NCBI GenBank assembly: GCA_026984935.1
Contig: JALSRD010000073.1
Span: 68,313-132,312, forward strand
DNA from: Desulfobacterales bacterium
Lineage (GTDB): Bacteria > Desulfobacterota > Desulfobacteria > Desulfobacterales > JALSRD01
Reading direction: 5' to 3'
Length of the DNA: 64,000 nt
Part shown: piece after piece, positions 2,769 through 30,898 of the stretch
Position numbering within the stretch: the stretch's first letter is position 1
How the letters are laid out: each line of letters opens with the position of its first letter
Made by a program: the position numbers and the translations under genes
The notes under the pieces: model-generated
Databases searched by the model: none
What the model was told of the DNA's origin: nothing
What the model saw: the letters and a program-made list of their open reading frames with translations, nothing else

Positions 2769-3026
2769 ATGCAATACCTGGATTGCACCCTGAAATCGTG
2801 AACGGGCAACAACGGCTCAAAGCAAGGAGCATGCCAGGTAAAGAAGGAGGGAGGAAGCGCTTCCCAAGAGGGGCTTGACAGTAGGGAAACCGGCGGAGCA
2901 TCGTTGAAACCGGGCAGTCGGGGAAAGCTCTGCGGCGGCATGCCGCAGGTTTCGCCGGCCGGTGGGCGGGTAGGAATACCGCAGCGAGGCAAAACGCCCC
3001 AGCTGGCGGCTTGACATCAAGAGCGG

Positions 3027-19599: not shown

Positions 19600-19962
19600 T
19601 CAGGAAGCGGCCCGTTTCTTAAAAAACCAGCCGGCCTTTTTGGGCTTTTTCCGGCCGTCCGGGTTCGAAAACAGTGTGTCGCAGTTCAGCCGCACCATGG
19701 CGGCGGGTGCTTCAGGATGCATGGCCACGAGGAAAAAGCCGCCGCCGGCGGGCCGCACGTACAACCGCAGGTGTTCAAAAAACAGGTCGGCTTCCTGCAG
19801 ATTCTCGCAAGGCGCCAGGTTAAGGGCGTCAATACCCTGCCAGGCCGCTGTATCGGCGGCGGCCTGAAAAACCACCCGGCCGCTGCGGGAAAGCATGGCA
19901 ACTCCCACAACCCCTTTGATTGACAGTATTTCACTAAATTTTTGGTGCATTTGCACGCTCAT
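19600..19962 (-). CDS. Roadblock/LC7-like small protein
   Basis: A 120-residue protein with a roadblock-like order of strands and helices: a start helix (QKFSEILSIKG), then VVGVAMLSRSGRVVFQ and a C-terminal strand LYVRPAGGGFFLVAM. A basic FF/KK tail may interact with membrane or protein. The family call rests on pattern only. It overlaps the preceding REC-DUF4388 gene by 29 nt and has GGAG eight bases before the ATG. As the last gene in the GTPase operon it could act as a second GTPase-regulating roadblock subunit (inference). Confidence 0.55.
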   Translation of the reverse strand: MSVQMHQKFSEILSIKGVVGVAMLSRSGRVVFQAAADTAAWQGIDALNLAPCENLQEADLFFEHLRLYVRPAGGGFFLVAMHPEAPAAMVRLNCDTLFSNPDGRKKPKKAGWFFKKRAAS

Positions 19963-21028
19963 CTGCGTTTTCTCCGAAAGCGCCGTGCAGGCGGCGCATC
20001 AATTCCTGAAAGAGTTTTTCCCGGGGACACGCCGTGCTGAGCGCAATGGCCGTTTGCGCACCGTCGGGCACAAGCACGCGCCCGCCGCCATCTCCGCAAC
20101 GCACGAAAGCGAACGCCAGCTTTCCGGCGGAAAGCGATCTGCCGGTATCGTTAAAGCACTGCAGCAAATCACGCGCCGCGGTGTCGCTGTATATCCGGTC
20201 GACACCGTGCCAGCCGGAAAGCGCCCGGCGCAATGTCTCCGTCAATACCACTGGCACCTGCGTTACAGACGGCGTGTCCGGTGCGGGGGATGCCTGGCGT
20301 GATCGGCCGGCGTCCTCCGGAGCGCGGGACTCATCCTTTTGGCGCATGGCTTCGAACAGGATATACTGCAGATCGTTTTCAATGCGGCCCCGTGTCACGG
20401 GACAGCTGAGCTGGATGGAGAGCGACACTTCGTCCCACGAGAAGATCTTCCGGGCGGCCGCCTCTTCCCGGAGTTCATCGACCCGCGCATCCAGCAGCTG
20501 TCCCCGGTGGAAAAACAGCGCGCCCCGCTGCCCGGTCGCTTCGCTTTGCAGGCGTAGGGTGCAGGTCCGCTGTTCCATTTCGATGAGCTGCAGAAACATG
20601 CTGGCCGTGACCTTGTGCAGGGTTCCACCATCCGCCTGCTGGTTCAGAATAGCCACGATACGATCATGCAGGTAGCTTATTTTAAAGGGCTTCTCGATGA
20701 ATTCGGCGGCCCCGCTTTCCCGGGCCAAACGCTCCATTTCGGGTGTGCTGAAACCGGACATGATAATGACCGGGATGTCGGCGTAGCGTGCCTGGACATG
20801 TTTCAGGAGCGCCAAGCCGTCCATGCGGGGCATCTTCATGTCCGTGACGATCAGGTCGATGGAACTGGCGCTGAGCTTCTGCACGGCCACCTTGCCATCG
20901 CCGGCGATCAGGATTTCAAAATGCCGGCCGTACTTCGCCATACCCTCCTGGAGTGAAAACAGGGCTTCCTGGTTATCGTCGACGATCAGGACCCTGCGGG
21001 TCGTCGTTGCATGTCGCGGCAGTGGCAC
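19934..21028 (-). CDS. Response regulator with DUF4388 (PatA-like) domain
   Basis: A 364-residue protein. An N-terminal receiver domain (about 10-130) has acidic pocket VDDN, acceptor Asp in IVTDMKMPRMDG and Lys in IEKPFK. A DUF4388-like domain follows (about 135-230, with TLRLQSEATGQRGALFFHRGQLLDA). A low-complexity linker leads to a C-terminal domain of unknown type containing Cys residues. There is no DNA-binding domain, so output is probably by protein contact. GTG 21028 has GGGGA upstream. Its receiver could be the target of the operon kinase (inference). Confidence 0.85.
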   Translation of the reverse strand: MPLPRHATTTRRVLIVDDNQEALFSLQEGMAKYGRHFEILIAGDGKVAVQKLSASSIDLIVTDMKMPRMDGLALLKHVQARYADIPVIIMSGFSTPEMERLARESGAAEFIEKPFKISYLHDRIVAILNQQADGGTLHKVTASMFLQLIEMEQRTCTLRLQSEATGQRGALFFHRGQLLDARVDELREEAAARKIFSWDEVSLSIQLSCPVTRGRIENDLQYILFEAMRQKDESRAPEDAGRSRQASPAPDTPSVTQVPVVLTETLRRALSGWHGVDRIYSDTAARDLLQCFNDTGRSLSAGKLAFAFVRCGDGGGRVLVPDGAQTAIALSTACPREKLFQELMRRLHGAFGENADERANAPKI

Positions 21029-21044
21029 AGGACTTTCCCCGATA

Positions 21045-22019
21045 TCAAAGTTTCAACTGCCGGATCCGGCTGCGGTACTTGTTCGACCATGCCGCCAGGG
21101 GTGCCTTGAATTTGTCTGTCAGGCCCAGTTCGGCGGCAAGTTCGTTCACGGCCTCCGTAACCCCCGCGATAAGCTCCGGGTCGTTCACTTCGGCGCTGCA
21201 TCGTATCTTCTGCTGGCGATAAGCAAATTCCGAAGCAAATGGATCCAGGAAGGGGAAATCGTCGGCTTTTTCCACAAACTTTTTTTTGAGTAGTACGGTA
21301 AAATCGGTTTTGGCGTTTCGGCGGCTACCCGCCAGCTTTTCAAACTGCACCAACAGGTCCTCCAGCATGGCAACGGTCTGCGGCGACGGCTTGCCGTTGG
21401 ACGGAACATCGGCTCCCGGCAGCGTTTTTTCCAGGGGGATGCGGTAGACGTCAAAAATCCCACCCATCTGCGTGGTTTGCGCTACTAGGGCCTCCCGGCG
21501 TGCGGCGGTGGTGTCGAAACGCCAGTTTTCAGCGGCCCGGGAAACACCCAGAGACTTGCCACCACACAAAAACAGCATGCTTTTGTCTTTTTGGGGGCCA
21601 TGCGCCACGTCGATATAGCCGGTGAGCTTTTCGGCCTGCATCTTGGCGATCAGTTTTTCCAGATTGGTGAACTCGGTGCTGAGATTGGCATATATCTTCC
21701 TGGCGTTGCAGAGATTGGCCCAGTAATCGGCCATGCCGGCATCGATGCGGTAGATGAAAAGGGAAAAATTGACTTTTTCGGTGGCCGCGATGACCTTTTC
21801 GGTGCTGACCGGGCGAAGCTTATCGCTGGACCGCAATTTCAATATGCTGTTGATGATTTCGTCTTTGTTAAAAAAGACAGCGCCCTCGGATGTATTGGAT
21901 TTCAGGTAGACACTGCCGCTGCCGATTTCCCCCTGGTAGTGTTCGACCAGTTTGGCAAAATCGATGAAGTAGCTGTTCAAATTAACGACCACCGGTTTGT
22001 CTTTGGGAAAAACGATCAT
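21045..22019 (-). CDS. Uncharacterised protein with DUF4388-like repeats, 324 aa
   Basis: I do not recognise a named family. Two segments, SGSVYLKSNTSEGAVFFNKD (about 30-50) and TGYIDVAHGPQKDKSMLFL (about 140-160), share the DUF4388-like pattern of a strand, a basic loop and a second strand ending in a turn. The C-terminal 90 residues are helical and charged. No membrane segment is present. ATG 22019 behind AAAGGACTTTCG is preferred over the ORF-track start at 22049. It is in the middle of the GTPase operon, 16 bp before the REC-DUF4388 gene, and may be a partner of it. Confidence 0.6.
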   Translation of the reverse strand: MIVFPKDKPVVVNLNSYFIDFAKLVEHYQGEIGSGSVYLKSNTSEGAVFFNKDEIINSILKLRSSDKLRPVSTEKVIAATEKVNFSLFIYRIDAGMADYWANLCNARKIYANLSTEFTNLEKLIAKMQAEKLTGYIDVAHGPQKDKSMLFLCGGKSLGVSRAAENWRFDTTAARREALVAQTTQMGGIFDVYRIPLEKTLPGADVPSNGKPSPQTVAMLEDLLVQFEKLAGSRRNAKTDFTVLLKKKFVEKADDFPFLDPFASEFAYRQQKIRCSAEVNDPELIAGVTEAVNELAAELGLTDKFKAPLAAWSNKYRSRIRQLKL

Positions 22020-22127
22020 CGAAAGTCCTTTTGTCTTGGCCTGGGCCACCGTGCAGCGCCTGTTTCAGCCGGACCCCGCGGCTGTCGTCACATCCAACGT
22101 TGGTTCCGGTCCGTGCGGCGGTGCCTG

Positions 22128-22598
22128 CTAGTAGCCGTTTTCCTTGATTTTGCTGAGCATTTTCTGCCTGAAGTTGCTTCTTTTGCCTTCGCGTTGGATT
22201 TCCTGTGACAGCAGGTCGACCAGTTCAGCCGCGTGATGGGCCGGAAAATCTGAAAAACTGTATCCCAGGTCTTCCAGTGCATCTTCGATCAGAACGGGTG
22301 CCAGCGGTCCGACGGCCAGTGCCAGCTGTACGTTCAGGTAGCTGAAAAAGTCATGGTCGACGGCCGATACCGCTTTTGCCGTCGGTTCGATCAAGTTGAG
22401 CTTGAGCAGCTTGCGGGCGACATCCTCTAGAACTCGGAGCTCAAGCCCTGTACGGCCGGCGATTTCGCTCAGATTCTTCTGGCCGTCGAATTCCGCAAAA
22501 ATTCCCAGCATGCGGCCGGTCAGCGAGAATTCATGCAGGTCGTTGCGCGCCGTTCTCTGAAATACCATAAAAGCAAAATCATCCAGTGGCATATCCAT
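22128..22598 (-). CDS. Uncharacterised helical protein, 156 aa
   Basis: The N-terminal half reads like a winged-helix/PqqD-type fold (TGRMLGIFAEFDGQKNLSEI, then LELRVLEDVARKLLKLNLIE). The C-terminal half is helical (VGPLAPVLIEDALEDLGYSF) and resembles effector-binding tails found beside roadblock proteins. This is pattern-level only, and DNA binding is not shown. GGAGG sits nine bases before the ATG. The start overlaps the preceding gene by 20 nt and there is a 108-nt gap to the next. Confidence 0.55.
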   Translation of the reverse strand: MDMPLDDFAFMVFQRTARNDLHEFSLTGRMLGIFAEFDGQKNLSEIAGRTGLELRVLEDVARKLLKLNLIEPTAKAVSAVDHDFFSYLNVQLALAVGPLAPVLIEDALEDLGYSFSDFPAHHAAELVDLLSQEIQREGKRSNFRQKMLSKIKENGY

Positions 22599-23238
22599 CG
22601 TGCGGGTTCCTCCATGATCTGATCTCTTCTTTCAGTCGCCTGAATTCATCACGGATAACGACCTTGAGCTCTTCAGCCAGGTTTTGCAGCAGAAGTTGCA
22701 ATTCCGGCGAGACGGGTTCCGCCGTGCGCTGCACGACAGCCGGTGCTTTAGCCCGACGCCGGGCTGCCGCAGGCATCACCTGGGTCTGGAAGTCGTGAAA
22801 ACGGCTCACCTGCACACGCAAAATTTTCATCTTGGCGTCCTGGGGCAGGTCCGGCTGGGCGAGAATTTTTTCCAGGCCGGCAAATACAGACTTCATGATA
22901 TTCATGGACTGGACATGCGCTTTGCTCTTGCGGACCTTGATGTAGCGGCCCAGTGAAATCAGCATCTGGATCAGGATGAGTGCGATCTTGTCGCTGGCGC
23001 AAACCTGTTTCAGCGCTGTGAGCCGTTCAATCAGGGCGGTGATGGCCGCATCTGTAATTTCCCAGTCAACGGAAAGGATATCGGCCTTGACGGCCTCAAG
23101 CAGCCGTTTGCCGGTTGCGGCTGTTCGATCCGGCGGCTGTCCCGCTGCGCCCGCTCCAGAAGTGTCTTCATCTTCAAAAAGCATATCGAGGCGTTTACCT
23201 ACTTCAGCGGACAGTGTTTGATCGTCTTTTGCGTCCAC
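22579..23238 (-). CDS. Uncharacterised alpha-helical protein, 219 aa
   Basis: No family recognised. A disordered Gly/Ala/Pro stretch (about 20-45) is followed by a helical domain (about 45-150) with SVDWEITDAAITALIERL and LILIQMLISLGRYIKV. A basic linker and a final coiled-coil-like segment (LQNLAEELKVVIRDEFRRLKEEI) close it. It looks like a scaffold or effector rather than an enzyme. GTG 23238 is preceded by TAGGAGGTGATC, a near-perfect match to the 16S rRNA tail, suggesting strong translation. It starts 11 bp after the GTPase gene. Confidence 0.6.
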   Translation of the reverse strand: MDAKDDQTLSAEVGKRLDMLFEDEDTSGAGAAGQPPDRTAATGKRLLEAVKADILSVDWEITDAAITALIERLTALKQVCASDKIALILIQMLISLGRYIKVRKSKAHVQSMNIMKSVFAGLEKILAQPDLPQDAKMKILRVQVSRFHDFQTQVMPAAARRRAKAPAVVQRTAEPVSPELQLLLQNLAEELKVVIRDEFRRLKEEIRSWRNPHDGYATG

Positions 23239-23249
23239 GCGATCACCTC

Positions 23250-23855
23250 CTATTTTAATTGCCCCTGAACCGTCGGCATGGTCAGCATGATGATTTTTTT
23301 CATCGTTTTGATGACATTGAGCCCCGTAAGGGCGCTGGCCACCATGGAAGGTGCCTTCAGCTGGGCGTTGAGATCCTTTTCCAGAATCTGGGGAGACAGC
23401 ATCGGAATGCCCTTTTCCGCGAGATCGATCTTGTTGTACTGCATGACCAGGGGGATTTTAAAAATACTCTTGTTGTAGTCTGACAGGTTCTCGTACAAAT
23501 TTTTCAGCGACAGGATATTCTTGCGCCGCACGACCGCCATGCAGTCCGCCACGAAAACGACACCGTCGACCCCCCGCAGCACCAGTTTGCGTGTCGAATC
23601 GTATTTTACCTGGCCCGGCACCGTATATAGCTGGACGCGTACATCGTACCCCAGGATCTTGCCCACGTCGAAGGGCAGGAAATCAAAGAACAGCGTACGG
23701 TCACCATGGGTTTTCAGGGACACCAGGTCCGTTTTGATGCGATGGTTGAATTTATTGTAAATGTATTCCAGGTTGGTCGTCTTCCCGCCACGACCAGGGC
23801 CGTAATAGACGATTTTGATCTGAACTTCTCTGGTTTTCGGATTGACAAATGCCAT
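23250..23855 (-). CDS. MglA-like small Ras-family GTPase
   Basis: A 201-residue prokaryotic small GTPase of the MglA type, the switch that sets polarity in Myxococcus and has many uncharacterised relatives. G1 is GPGRGGKTT, G3 is TVPGQ (the MglA form instead of DxxG), and G4 is QYNKIDL. The segment TLFFDFLPFDVG is the family switch I region. Length is typical. The ribosome site is AAGGTGTGA. The roadblock gene is 117 bp upstream and should encode its GAP or adaptor. It probably transmits kinase or localisation signals; the output is unknown. Confidence 0.92.
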   Translation of the reverse strand: MAFVNPKTREVQIKIVYYGPGRGGKTTNLEYIYNKFNHRIKTDLVSLKTHGDRTLFFDFLPFDVGKILGYDVRVQLYTVPGQVKYDSTRKLVLRGVDGVVFVADCMAVVRRKNILSLKNLYENLSDYNKSIFKIPLVMQYNKIDLAEKGIPMLSPQILEKDLNAQLKAPSMVASALTGLNVIKTMKKIIMLTMPTVQGQLK

Positions 23856-23972: not shown

Positions 23973-24377
23973 TCAGGGGCTTCCGTTGGCAGAAAAAATT
24001 TCCGTGATTCTGCTGACGGCTTCAGCGACTTTCAGGCGCAGAAATCCCAGCGAAACCTCGTTGCTGAATATGGTTACCAGCAAGAATTCCGTCATGATCT
24101 TGCTGAAGTGAATGTTCTCTGATTTCCCCTTGTGGAAAAGCAGCGAAAATTCATCTTCACCGATGATTTTGGCCATGGCGCTGACGGCACCGAAGTTTCC
24201 GGCTGCCAGCGCCGCCAGAGAGTAGATATCGTGCTTTTTGCTGCCGTTGTCGCGTGAAGCCAGGATGTTGCCGGCCATGTCGATGAGCACGACGCAGCTG
24301 ACGCCCAGATCGATGATGTCGTTTTGCAGCACACTTTCGATGTCGTTGAGCTGCTGTTCATTTACGACCAGTGCCAA
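23973..24377 (-). CDS. Roadblock/LC7 domain protein (MglB-like)
   Basis: A 134-residue roadblock protein. Strand-helix order is visible: LNDIESVLQNDIIDLGVSCVVLIDMAGNILA, then the glycine-rich helix SLAALAAGNFGAVSAM and FLLVTIFSNEVSLGFLRLK. MglB-type roadblock dimers act as GAPs for MglA. A TTG start is well supported by AAAAAGGAG eight bases before it. It lies 18 bp after the histidine kinase and before the GTPase, repeating the kinase-roadblock-GTPase order of actinobacterial conservons. Confidence 0.85.
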   Translation of the reverse strand: MALVVNEQQLNDIESVLQNDIIDLGVSCVVLIDMAGNILASRDNGSKKHDIYSLAALAAGNFGAVSAMAKIIGEDEFSLLFHKGKSENIHFSKIMTEFLLVTIFSNEVSLGFLRLKVAEAVSRITEIFSANGSP

Positions 24378-24395: not shown

Positions 24396-25115
24396 TCAAG
24401 TAGCGGGTTTGACGGATGCCTCCGGCGCGGAAGCTTTCAGCCAGATACTGACTTCCGCACCTGCCGGCGGGCGGTTTCGTATGCCGATGCCACCGCCCAT
24501 TTCCGCCATGAGCTTTCTGGCGATGGCCAGCCCCATACCGCTTTTTCCGGGTTTGGTGGTAAAAAGCGGCGTAAAGAGCGTATCCATTTCCGCGACCGTG
24601 CTGCCGGGGCCGTTGTCCCGGACAACGATATCCACCTGGGACGTGCCGCCGCCGGTGTAAATTTCGATTTCCGGCGCACCGTGGCCCGAAAGGGCCTCCA
24701 AGGCATTTTCAACCACCCCCAGAAAGACTTTGTTCAATGCCGCCTGGTTGATCAGGACGGTGCAGGGCATCGTTTCGTAGCGCGTGACCAGTTTGATCTG
24801 CCTGTCTTCCAGGCGCTGGGAAATCAGGGCCAGCAACTGCGTCCAGAAAGCCGAGAAAGCCATGGGCCTCCGCTCCCGGGCTGCAAACATGGAATACGAC
24901 TTCAGGGCCTGAACGGTCTCCTGCTGGCGGTTGACCAGCTGGGCCAAGCGCTGCAGATATTCTTTTTTTTTGGTTTCTTCGAAAGCATCGAAGCTTTCCC
25001 GCAAAACATCCAGTGTGATTTTCAGGGCGTTGACCGAATTGCCGAGCTGGTGCCGCAAAACCGACAGGACCAGTTCGAGATCCACTTCCGGAGCCTGATT
25101 TTTTCTGGTGCGCAT
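24396..25115 (-). CDS. Sensorless cytoplasmic histidine kinase
   Basis: A 239-residue kinase with no membrane segment or input domain. It begins almost directly with the dimerisation helix SVLRHQLGNSVNALK, whose His is the likely phosphosite although the context HQLGN differs from the usual H-E/D-x-x-P. The ATPase domain has the N box (VVENALEAL), G1 (DNGPGS), a phenylalanine box (LFTPLFTTKPGKSGMGLA) and GGGI. ATG 25115 follows GAGAGGATACATGG; the ORF-track start at 25466 runs through the promoter. Signals may come through the roadblock/GTPase partners (inference). Confidence 0.8.
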   Translation of the reverse strand: MRTRKNQAPEVDLELVLSVLRHQLGNSVNALKITLDVLRESFDAFEETKKKEYLQRLAQLVNRQQETVQALKSYSMFAARERRPMAFSAFWTQLLALISQRLEDRQIKLVTRYETMPCTVLINQAALNKVFLGVVENALEALSGHGAPEIEIYTGGGTSQVDIVVRDNGPGSTVAEMDTLFTPLFTTKPGKSGMGLAIARKLMAEMGGGIGIRNRPPAGAEVSIWLKASAPEASVKPAT

Positions 25116-25200: not shown

Positions 25201-25216
25201 AGCAAAAAAAATGCCA
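25201..25216 (-). promoter_or_regulatory. Sigma54 promoter of the kinase-roadblock-GTPase operon
   Basis: On the minus strand, TGGCA, eight T, GCT gives exact GG-N10-GC spacing, with TTGCT at -12. The predicted start is about 75 nt before the kinase ATG. An NtrC-type activator is encoded just upstream in the same direction, making autoregulated sigma54 control of this operon likely. Confidence 0.75.
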
Positions 25217-25460
25217 TTTGATTAAATCCGGGGGCGCGGAAGCGAAATGATCCGGTGCGCTGCAGCGATAACCAGTGCTTGGCAGGCACCCATGCCGGCT
25301 GCCGGGCTGGGCGCAACCGTTGGGTTGAGGCAAAAAATGGCAATTTCGGACACAGAATGCGTATAGAAAAAGGTTTGTCGCAGCGGGCGCACCCGGTAGG
25401 GAAAAATTTCAGGCGCGAGGCGGCGGGTGGCGCAATCCGTGGGAGGCAGCATTTTAGGTG

Positions 25461-25473
25461 GTTCAATTTGAAC
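25461..25473. promoter_or_regulatory. 13-bp palindrome, possible enhancer site for the NtrC-type regulator
   Basis: GTTCAATTTGAAC is a perfect dyad about 250 bp upstream of the sigma54 promoter. It lies between the stop of the activator gene and the operon. Upstream activating sites of NtrC-family proteins are often dyads at this distance, so it is a candidate; binding is unproven. The rest of the 414-base gap shows no gene I can support. Confidence 0.4.
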
Positions 25474-25529
25474 TGCCCAGCTCATTTTGTGCCGGGTTGC
25501 CGGGATTCCGTTCGGAACTCGGGATTTGT

Positions 25530-26903
25530 TCAGTTCTCCGGAGAGGCTGCAGGCGGCATGGAGTCGCTTTTCAGTTTGCGCTTGAGGGTGGAAAGGGAAA
25601 TTCCCAGGGCCCTGGCACTGCGGCTTTTATTGCCGCTGTATGTTTCCAGCACCGCATGGATATGGCGCATTTCCACCTCATGCAGGGTGGGAATGGCATC
25701 GCCTCCGGGCCGGCAGATTTCAAACTTCTGCGGTGCGAGGTTCAGGTTGTTGTCGAGCAGCAGGTCCCCTGGTATGATTTCACTGCCGCGACACAAAAAT
25801 GATGCCCGCTCAATGACATTGCGCAGCTCTCTCACGTTTCCCGGCCAGGCATAGCGCATCATCCGCTTCATCTGTGCTTCCGGGATTTTGAGATCTTTTC
25901 TGCCGAATTGCGCCAGGAAATGTGCGGCAAGCGCGGGGATGTCCTCCGGATGTTCGCGCAAAGGCGGGATGTGCAGATTGAAAACGGCCAGCCGGTAATA
26001 CAGGTCCTGGCGGAACCTTCCGCTGCGGATTGCCTCCTCGAGGTTGCGGTTGGTGGTGGCGATGATGCGTACATCAACCGGAATGGTGCGTCCGCTGCCG
26101 ATCCGGCGAATGGACTTGTCTTCCAGAACCGCCAGTAGTTTGCTCTGCAGGTGGGTCGGGATCTCGCCAATTTCATCCAGCACCAGCGTCCCGCCGTCGG
26201 CCAGTTCAAAAATGCCCTCGCGGCGGAAATCAGCCCCCGTGAAAACCCCTCTTTCATGGCCGAAATACTCTGCCTCGATCAGATTTTCGGGAATTGCGGA
26301 GCAGTTGATGGTCAGAAAGTTTTCGCGGTTGGCCTGCCGTTCGTGAATCGCCCGGGAAACCAGGTTTTTGCCCACGCCGGTCTGCCCGGTGATCAGAATG
26401 GTGGCTTCTGACTGGGCGGCCACCTTGATCTGTTCGCGGATCCTGAACATGGCCTCTGATGATCCCACGAGCTTCTTTTTCTGGCGCTCCTGTTCCCTCT
26501 GGTAGTTGCTGACCTTCAGCTGACCCTCCAGCTTGAGGTTCTTGAGGGCCAGGTCGATGACGATCAGCAGCTCGTCCAGCTCGAACGGTTTGGACAAATA
26601 GTTGAAAGCACCGGCCTGCATGGCATCCACGGCGTACTGGATGGTTGCGTAGGCGGTAATGAAAATGATCTTGGTTTGCGGATTGATTTCCAGGACTTTC
26701 TGGCAGACTTCCAGGCCCGGTATGTCCGGCAGTTTCTGGTCCAGTAAAACCAGGCTGGGCTGGTGCTCCTTAAATATTTTCAGTCCCTGCCGGCCACTGG
26801 CGGCCGTGTGAACGCCATAACCCCTGGCAGTCAGGAAATCGAAAAGAGAGGTCGAAAACAGTTTATCATCGTCCACGACCAGTATGTTGACGGATTTGCG
26901 CAT
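25530..26903 (-). CDS. NtrC-family sigma54-dependent response regulator
   Basis: A 457-residue activator. The receiver domain (about 1-120) has LVVDDD and the acceptor Asp in LVLLDQKLPD. The AAA+ domain has Walker A GQTGVGKN, the sigma54 contact loop as GVFTGA (usually GAFTGA), Walker B TLVLDEIGEIP and the arginine-finger segment FRQDLYYRL. The C-terminal Fis-type HTH is SGNKSRSARALGISLSTLKRKL. I start at ATG 26903 because family proteins begin just before the receiver. The ORF-track start at 26978 adds 25 residues and overlaps a putative -10 box after TTGACA (26998-27003). Its presumed kinase is the next gene. Confidence 0.92.
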   Translation of the reverse strand: MRKSVNILVVDDDKLFSTSLFDFLTARGYGVHTAASGRQGLKIFKEHQPSLVLLDQKLPDIPGLEVCQKVLEINPQTKIIFITAYATIQYAVDAMQAGAFNYLSKPFELDELLIVIDLALKNLKLEGQLKVSNYQREQERQKKKLVGSSEAMFRIREQIKVAAQSEATILITGQTGVGKNLVSRAIHERQANRENFLTINCSAIPENLIEAEYFGHERGVFTGADFRREGIFELADGGTLVLDEIGEIPTHLQSKLLAVLEDKSIRRIGSGRTIPVDVRIIATTNRNLEEAIRSGRFRQDLYYRLAVFNLHIPPLREHPEDIPALAAHFLAQFGRKDLKIPEAQMKRMMRYAWPGNVRELRNVIERASFLCRGSEIIPGDLLLDNNLNLAPQKFEICRPGGDAIPTLHEVEMRHIHAVLETYSGNKSRSARALGISLSTLKRKLKSDSMPPAASPEN

Positions 26904-27168
26904 CGGTTGGCTTTGCATTTGCGAAAAGGGCGGCGAAGGTTTTCCCGGCAGCGGGTCGGCCTTGTACAGCCTCATCATTAAAAGACTTGCGGAAGCTTGT
27001 CAAGCAGATGATCCGGCCGGAGGCACCGTGCGGGTGTTGAGTACCGGGCAGTCCCCGTTCTGTTAGCCTTTCGCTTTCCCCGGCTGCCGGATTGGACGCG
27101 GTTTCGTCCGTTTTTCAACCACCGATGGAATTTTTCCCCCCGGATGAAGGTGCGCGGCAACGTTTCCC

Positions 27169-29851: not shown

Positions 29852-30898
29852 ATGAACAAAAACCTGTACAAAATCGTCACCATCGGCGGCGGCAGCGGCC
29901 AGTTCGCGCTGCTGCGGGGCCTGAGGGATAACGAGCAGCTTGATATTACAGCCGTTGTTTCCATGGTCGACAGCGGCGGGAGCACCGGCCGGCTGCGTGA
30001 CAGACTGGGCGTACTGCCGCCCGGAGATCCGCTCAAGTGTATCCTGGCGCTGTCCCCCCACCAGGATATCGTACGCACCCTATTTTTAAAACGTTTCCAA
30101 CACGATCGCCGCCTGCGGGGGCATAACGCCGGCAACATGCTGCTGACCATGCTCTCCCGGTTTACGGGCAGTTTTACCGCCGGTGTGCAGGCGCTGGCCG
30201 AGATTCTCGATGTCAGGGGACGGATCCTGCCGGTTACGGTGGACAAGGCCACCCTGGTGGCCGAGCTGACCGACGGCAGCCGGATTTACGGCGAGAGGGC
30301 CATCGATACACCCCGCGGCCACCAGCGTGAAAAGATCAAGGATGTCTGGCTGGTCCCCCACCACCACGACCGCATCTCGGTGTATCCGCCGGTGATTCAA
30401 GCCATCGAACAGGCGGACTTCATCATTATCGGCCCCGGTGATCTTTTCACCAGTATCCTGCCGAACCTGATCGTTCCGGGTGTCAGCGAAACCCTGGCCC
30501 GCTGCCGGGCCAAGATGCTCTACGTATTGAACATCATGACCAAGTTCGGTGAAACCCATCAGTTCAGAGGCCGGGATTTCGTCACCCGTTTGCAGGAAAG
30601 CATGGGCCGGTCCGTGGATGCCGTGCTGTATAACAACTGCCGGCCGCCCGAGAAGATCCTCGAACATTACAGGCGCCAGAAAGCCGAGTTCGTCCAGATC
30701 AATGGAAAAGACCCGTGGTGGCGTAAGCACAGGGTGTATGCCTGCGACTTACTGGATACAGCCGGCGGCATCGTGCGCCACAATCCCCGCAAACTGGCTG
30801 CTCTGGTGGAGCGCGTTATCCGTGCGGAGGGCGATTCAGAAGATGGATCTGTGATTTCGCAAAGCCCCAAAGGCGCCGATGCGGACGACCCGCCGTAA
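29852..30898 (+). CDS. yvcK: YvcK-family protein (CofD-like, gluconeogenesis/cell-wall factor)
   Basis: A 348-residue protein of the YvcK/CofD-like family, UDP-sugar-binding regulators needed for cell-wall growth on gluconeogenic carbon. Features are IGGGSGQFALLRGL at the N-terminus, MVDSGGSTGRLRD, GHNAGNMLL and GPGDLFTSILPNL, all family hallmarks. The first ~15 residues lack the long N-terminal extension of some members. No lactyl-nucleotide partner is nearby, so the CofD transfer reaction is unlikely. It is cotranscribed in appearance with the LysM and CdaA genes. Confidence 0.92.
   Translation: MNKNLYKIVTIGGGSGQFALLRGLRDNEQLDITAVVSMVDSGGSTGRLRDRLGVLPPGDPLKCILALSPHQDIVRTLFLKRFQHDRRLRGHNAGNMLLTMLSRFTGSFTAGVQALAEILDVRGRILPVTVDKATLVAELTDGSRIYGERAIDTPRGHQREKIKDVWLVPHHHDRISVYPPVIQAIEQADFIIIGPGDLFTSILPNLIVPGVSETLARCRAKMLYVLNIMTKFGETHQFRGRDFVTRLQESMGRSVDAVLYNNCRPPEKILEHYRRQKAEFVQINGKDPWWRKHRVYACDLLDTAGGIVRHNPRKLAALVERVIRAEGDSEDGSVISQSPKGADADDPP

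Follow-up and report, generated by a model that had tools for sequence, protein, structure and literature searches.

Predicted sigma-54 control of a kinase and MglA/MglB-type GTPase operon by an adjoining NtrC-type regulator in a Desulfobacterales bacterium

Introduction

In the few bacteria in which they have been studied, MglA-type GTPases determine cell polarity and pilus-driven motility, and to our knowledge little is known about the switching-on of such GTPase modules. MglA departs from the DxxG motif by a Thr for Asp (PMC3000849), as does the protein studied here with its TVPGQ motif. For sigma-54 control of Myxococcus xanthus mglBA we found no report in the literature.

The closest described control systems are NtrC-family activators with upstream activator sites, as in the sigma-54 regulome of Desulfovibrio vulgaris, where sites more than 300 bp away are also known (PMC4641369). 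The word GTPase is absent from that paper. Such activators can also adjoin non-coding RNAs. In M. xanthus pxrR/pxrK-Pxr, an NtrC-type regulator is directly followed by a sigma-54-driven non-coding RNA (PMC5684412, PMC10217877), and the NtrC-type regulators DVU0653 and DVU0679 of D. vulgaris have downstream non-coding RNAs (PMC4641369). Substitutions in the GAFTGA motif usually cripple activation (PMC2941729). Natural variants are common in Desulfovibrio, and the GVATGV variant of one activator was predicted to be functional (PMC4641369).

Here we describe a gap between an NtrC-type regulator gene and a GTPase operon within a 64,000-nucleotide stretch of DNA (the window). The window's genome (G000) was compared with a sister species (G001), a genome of another family (G215), six genomes of another genus (g97) and further members of the order.

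Results

The regulator gene and the GTPase operon

The gap is bounded by the regulator stop at 25530 and the kinase start at 25115, with both strands read. The genes on its two sides are:

25530..26978, minus strand: NtrC-type response regulator, 482 aa (Pfam Response_reg, Sigma54_activat, HTH_8; alignment of 10 orthologues)
24396..25115, minus strand: histidine kinase without sensor domain, 239 aa (Pfam HATPase_c, weak HisKA)
23973..24377, minus strand: Roadblock/LC7 protein, MglB-like (Pfam Robl_LC7; 85% identity in G001)
23250..23855, minus strand: small Ras-like GTPase, MglA-like (Pfam Ras; 87% identity in G001)
22579..23238, minus strand: operon gene 5, 219 aa, no known domain (synteny in relatives)
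22128..22598, minus strand: operon gene 6, 156 aa, weak winged-helix match (Pfam; synteny comparison)
21045..22049, minus strand: operon gene 7, 334 aa, no known domain (synteny in G001, G202, G215 and G079)
19934..21028, minus strand: receiver-DUF4388 protein (Pfam; synteny comparison)
19600..19962, minus strand: 120-aa protein, no known domain (synteny in G001 and G079)

The regulator combines a receiver, a sigma-54 AAA+ domain and a Fis-type HTH, the architecture of NtrC-family enhancer-binding proteins. The three Pfam domains of the product agree with the initial annotation, in which the adjoining gene codes for a sigma54 activator. Its AAA+ contact loop reads GVFTGA versus the standard GAFTGA, a variant for which we found no report in the literature. 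GVFTGA occurs in G000, G001, G202 and G215, exactly the four regulators that lie beside a GTPase module, while the other six in the 10-orthologue alignment carry GAFTGA, GSFTGA or GTFTGA. All ten have the same recognition-helix segment, SLSTLKR. Paralogues carry similar, nearly the same recognition helices, and therefore another activator could use the same sites.

The kinase starts at an ATG at 25115, preceded by AGAGAGGA. A longer frame of 356 aa, beginning with a TTG at 25466 and running through the promoter, was rejected as the gene because homology sets in only around residue 12 and the G001 gene cannot be extended to a longer open frame. Searching genome contigs with the kinase returned unrelated kinases only. 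The GTPase, of a type widespread in the order, is Ras-like, has TVPGQ in place of DxxG and thus Thr for the conserved Asp, and adjoins a roadblock gene; these are the features of an MglA/MglB pair. The 5' leader was searched for a hairpin, and its stability was not above that of shuffles (z -0.87).

A sigma-54 promoter and tandem dyads in the gap

Four elements were located in the gap:

25201..25216, minus strand: sigma-54 promoter -24/-12 TGGCATTTTTTTTGCT, exact consensus; counterpart in G001 TGGCATTTTTCTTGCT
25452..25462, minus strand: conserved ACCACCTAAAA adjoining site 2, one of three 11-mers common to the G001 gap
25460..25474, minus strand: predicted upstream activator site 2, AGTTCAAATTGAACC, which encloses a perfect 13-bp dyad; position conserved
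25479..25493, minus strand: predicted upstream activator site 1, imperfect dyad GGCACAAAATGAGCT; ACAAAATGAGC exact in G001, GGCTCAAAATGAGCC in G215

TGGCATTTTTTTTGCT matches TGGCAY-N5-TTGCW at 11 of 11 specified positions, and its GG-N10-GC lies in the TGGCA/TTGC context by which sigma-54 promoters are recognized. Exact matches to this consensus number 45 in the whole genome versus 5 for a reversed-pattern control, so that an exact match is about nine times as frequent as expected by chance. The score of the element was reached in none of 1,000 shuffles of the gap, and RpoN is encoded in the genome. The element lies 85 nt from the kinase ATG, or about 75 nt counted from the predicted start site; the minus-strand GG-N10-GC element that the initial annotation had placed about 75 nt before the kinase is thus present at about the right distance. 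The only other exact consensus match in the window is TGGCATGCTCCTTGCT (2821-2836, minus strand), upstream of which no dyad pair stood out in the matrix scan described below.

The same annotation had reported a perfect 13-bp dyad about 250 bp upstream. This dyad, GTTCAATTTGAAC, is found at 25461-25473, 245 bp from the promoter, and occurs once in the 3.9-Mb genome. A second, imperfect dyad at 25479-25493 had been overlooked. The two sites are 19 bp apart centre to centre, and site 1 has been conserved better than site 2; site 2 scores 20.2 bits with a matrix built from the dyads of other genomes. The common dyad approximates GGNTCAAWWTGANCC, of which the gap holds two copies. Short palindromes with two mismatches allowed are as numerous in the window as expected by chance. 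A lone short palindrome is therefore weak evidence, and the case rests on comparison. Conserved dyads, usually in pairs, upstream of a promoter characterize the enhancers of NtrC-type activators, and this is the arrangement found here.

Conservation in relatives

In G001 the same genes are split between two contigs with overlapping end sequences in the promoter region. The gap aligns with that of the window at about 47% identity, and the only exact 11-mers common to both are ACAAAATGAGC (site 1), ACCACCTAAAA (edge of site 2) and ATGGCATTTTT (-24 element). The other half-site of site 2 has diverged in G001, with loss of perfect symmetry. G215 carries GGCTCAAAATGAGCC, GGGTCAATATGACCC and CGGCATGCGAATTGCT in the same order as the window. 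A CACCTAAAA-like sequence was also seen in G215 (compare ACCACCTAAAA at window 25452-25462).

Orthologues of the regulator (E at most 1e-150) were found in 10 of the 381 genomes of the order. A class-level search, drawing on largely the same genomes, returned the same ten. They split from the paralogues with a support of 1.0 in a tree that held few paralogues. In nine of the ten genomes, dyads lie 10-60 nt past the stop codon and are followed by a sigma-54-like site, each of these sites with a shuffle p no higher than 0.006; the site of the six g97 genomes matches at 10 of 11 positions. The shuffle values for the dyads of G000 and G215 are not independent, because the dyad consensus was partly read off both; the g97 genomes and the matrix test are independent of its derivation. 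The tenth genome, G202, keeps regulator and operon, and neither dyad nor sigma-54 site was found there. We considered whether its regulator is a pseudogene and rejected this, as the gene is intact; the absent elements are therefore a real exception. With G202 set apart, conservation of -24/-12 and dyad in relatives, the point on which the initial annotation had staked its reading, is borne out, for example by G001 and G215.

Among 26 roadblock-GTPase modules without the regulator, we observed no convincing upstream excess of sigma-54 sites. One genome with the kinase, G079, has a site matching at 10 of 11 positions upstream (p 0.005). GTPase modules of this type are not, as a rule, sigma-54-controlled.

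A predicted regulon of four promoters

A weight matrix derived from the dyads of other genomes was used to scan the 420 bp ahead of each of the 45 sigma-54 sites in the window's genome. With the full matrix four outliers emerged (C72:46879, 32.5; the window, 31.7; C30:10934, 28.4; C58:30711, 19.3), followed by a next-best promoter at 13.0 and a median of 0.2 over the 45 sites. The best downstream control reached 10.1. A matrix from the g97 genomes only placed the same four on top (C72, 33.1; C30, 27.0; the window, 26.1; C58, 21.2). Among 60 column-permuted matrices, the highest score was 19.3 or more in two, and in none did the second score reach that level. The dyads are spaced 19 bp apart at C72, 19 in the window, 20 at C30 and 14 at C58.

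Of the other three promoters, one precedes a phosphoribosyltransferase gene with a zinc-ribbon protein gene behind it, one pilC-pilS, and one the gene of a periplasmic solute-binding protein, followed by that of a zinc-ribbon/HAMP protein. Before pilC-pilS (G000:C30:10814-10949), tandem dyads 20 bp apart accompany an exact sigma-54 site. The same dyad pair is seen at G000:C72:46736-46894 and at C58 around 30711-30835, and each of these operons holds a PF13717 zinc-ribbon protein. Judged from the shared motif, pilC-pilS and the two zinc-ribbon operons are most likely activated as well by the adjoining regulator, or by a paralogue that recognizes the same DNA. The locus links the GTPase module to sigma-54 and, by way of a candidate enhancer motif in common, to pilC-pilS, and offers four promoters to test.

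A putative different target in another genus

The six g97 genomes carry dyads and a sigma-54 site ahead of an apparently non-coding element of 271-285 nt, where the window has the GTPase operon. These loci (L087-L092, in G316, G151, G334, G262, G235 and G312) lie just past the regulator gene. The element has invariant ends, AGCCGCTACA and TGTAGCGGCTT, able to pair over about 11 bp. As these paired ends hardly vary, they provide no covariation support. No open frame of more than 45 aa lies inside it, and terminator-like hairpins were read by eye beyond it. The end pattern occurs in only these six of the 381 genomes and is absent from the window's genome. Rfam gave no credible match in window or relatives, the g97 element included. 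A retron or similar was also considered and set aside, since no reverse transcriptase was seen by eye in partial translations of open reading frames at two loci. We regard the element as a putative sigma-54-driven non-coding RNA.

We hold it possible, at a little below even, that regulator and enhancer have been kept beside the regulator's own gene while the output was exchanged, the GTPase operon in some genera giving way to a new family of sigma-54-driven non-coding RNA in another, and that in the GTPase lineages the regulator brings the GTPase, type IV pilus genes and zinc-ribbon proteins under joint control. Such a swap of the adjoining target for a putative non-coding RNA would be a natural case of rewiring with the enhancer held constant.

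Discussion

The gap is very probably a sigma-54 control region through which the adjoining regulator drives the kinase/MglB-like/MglA-like operon by way of the tandem dyads. Promoter, dyads, their conservation and the motif common to four promoters are seen in the sequence itself; that the regulator is phosphorylated and binds, that the DNA loops, that the genes are transcribed as an operon, and what they do in the cell, we infer. When active, probably through phosphorylation of its receiver domain, the regulator would bind the tandem 15-bp dyads just past its own stop codon. By a loop of about 250 bp it would contact the sigma-54 RNA polymerase positioned at 25201-25216, from where the kinase/MglB-like/MglA-like operon would be switched on. 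Around the GTPase module, pilC-pilS and the two zinc-ribbon operons most likely form a small regulon.

The locus had been described as a complete wiring diagram for autogenous sigma54 control of a GTPase module. Control of the module by the adjoining regulator is supported by the conserved elements and by the matrix, which finds them independently. The word autogenous is not: the promoter lies downstream of the regulator gene, and the region ahead of that gene contains neither a dyad pair (matrix score -3.3) nor a sigma-54 match, so that self-control of the regulator is not supported. Nor is a complete diagram supported; the predicted wiring extends to three more promoters, and G202 is without both elements. 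A positive feedback could be added to the preferred reading without excluding it, the kinase made from the promoter phosphorylating the regulator that drives this promoter. Kinase and regulator adjoin in G000, G001, G202 and G215. However, the kinase and GTPase module occur without the regulator nearby in G079, G139, G067 and G196, the regulator occurs without the kinase nearby in six genomes, and the promoter does not drive the regulator gene. As kinase and regulator assort independently, such a loop is only a guess, and we consider it rather doubtful.

Three other explanations bear on the control region itself. A different NtrC-type activator of the same DNA specificity might act at the dyads in place of the adjoining one; the nearly identical recognition helices of the paralogues would allow this, and the motif is also present at pilC-pilS, where a PilR-type activator is expected. 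We think it unlikely, because the dyads stay beside the regulator gene in nine of ten genomes, even with a different downstream target. It is quite improbable that a sigma-70 promoter, or read-through out of the regulator gene, accounts for most transcription of the operon and that the sigma-54 element is minor or decayed. Against it, the exact sigma-54 consensus has been kept in G001 while the surrounding gap diverged, and the layout of activator sites and promoter is common to four loci; for it, a weak sigma-70-like match (9/12, 25479-25451) overlaps the dyads, and G202 manages without the sigma-54 element.

The variant contact loop suggests yet another role, in which a GVFTGA regulator would be unable to activate sigma-54 polymerase and would act as a repressor at the dyads or at a sigma-70 promoter. 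The equivalent change in NtrC impairs activation, and GVFTGA is found in four of the four regulators beside the GTPase module, the other six having GAFTGA, GSFTGA or GTFTGA. Yet G001 and G215, whose regulators also read GVFTGA, have kept the sigma-54 element, and the Desulfovibrio activator variant GVATGV is predicted to work (PMC4641369). We regard this role as very improbable. By sequence comparison, then, the sigma-54 control region is real and conserved, its target uncommon and its predicted regulon small.

The locus resembles the NtrC-family systems of the D. vulgaris sigma-54 regulome (PMC4641369) in its receiver-AAA+-Fis HTH regulator, its dyads, the distant -24/-12 promoter and a target beside the regulator. 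It differs from them in that the target is an MglA/MglB-type GTPase module and the loop reads GVFTGA. The layout of Pxr, DVU0653 and DVU0679 is like that proposed for the six g97 relatives; unlike in these systems, the target in the window is protein-coding, and the g97 element is without an Rfam match. Streptomyces conservons (HK, MglB-like, CvnC, MglA-like; PMC4316618) also combine a kinase with a roadblock protein and an MglA-type GTPase within a single operon. The window's operon is not a conservon, as Pfam reports no CvnC-type domain among its proteins; its kinase lacks a membrane sensor domain, it holds extra genes, and a sigma-54 activator adjoins it. M. xanthus mglBA (PMC3000849, PMC3546991) shares the roadblock and MglA-type GTPase operon and the Thr for the conserved Asp, but has two genes and no kinase. 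Thus, the parts are of known kind, whereas the target and its swap look new.
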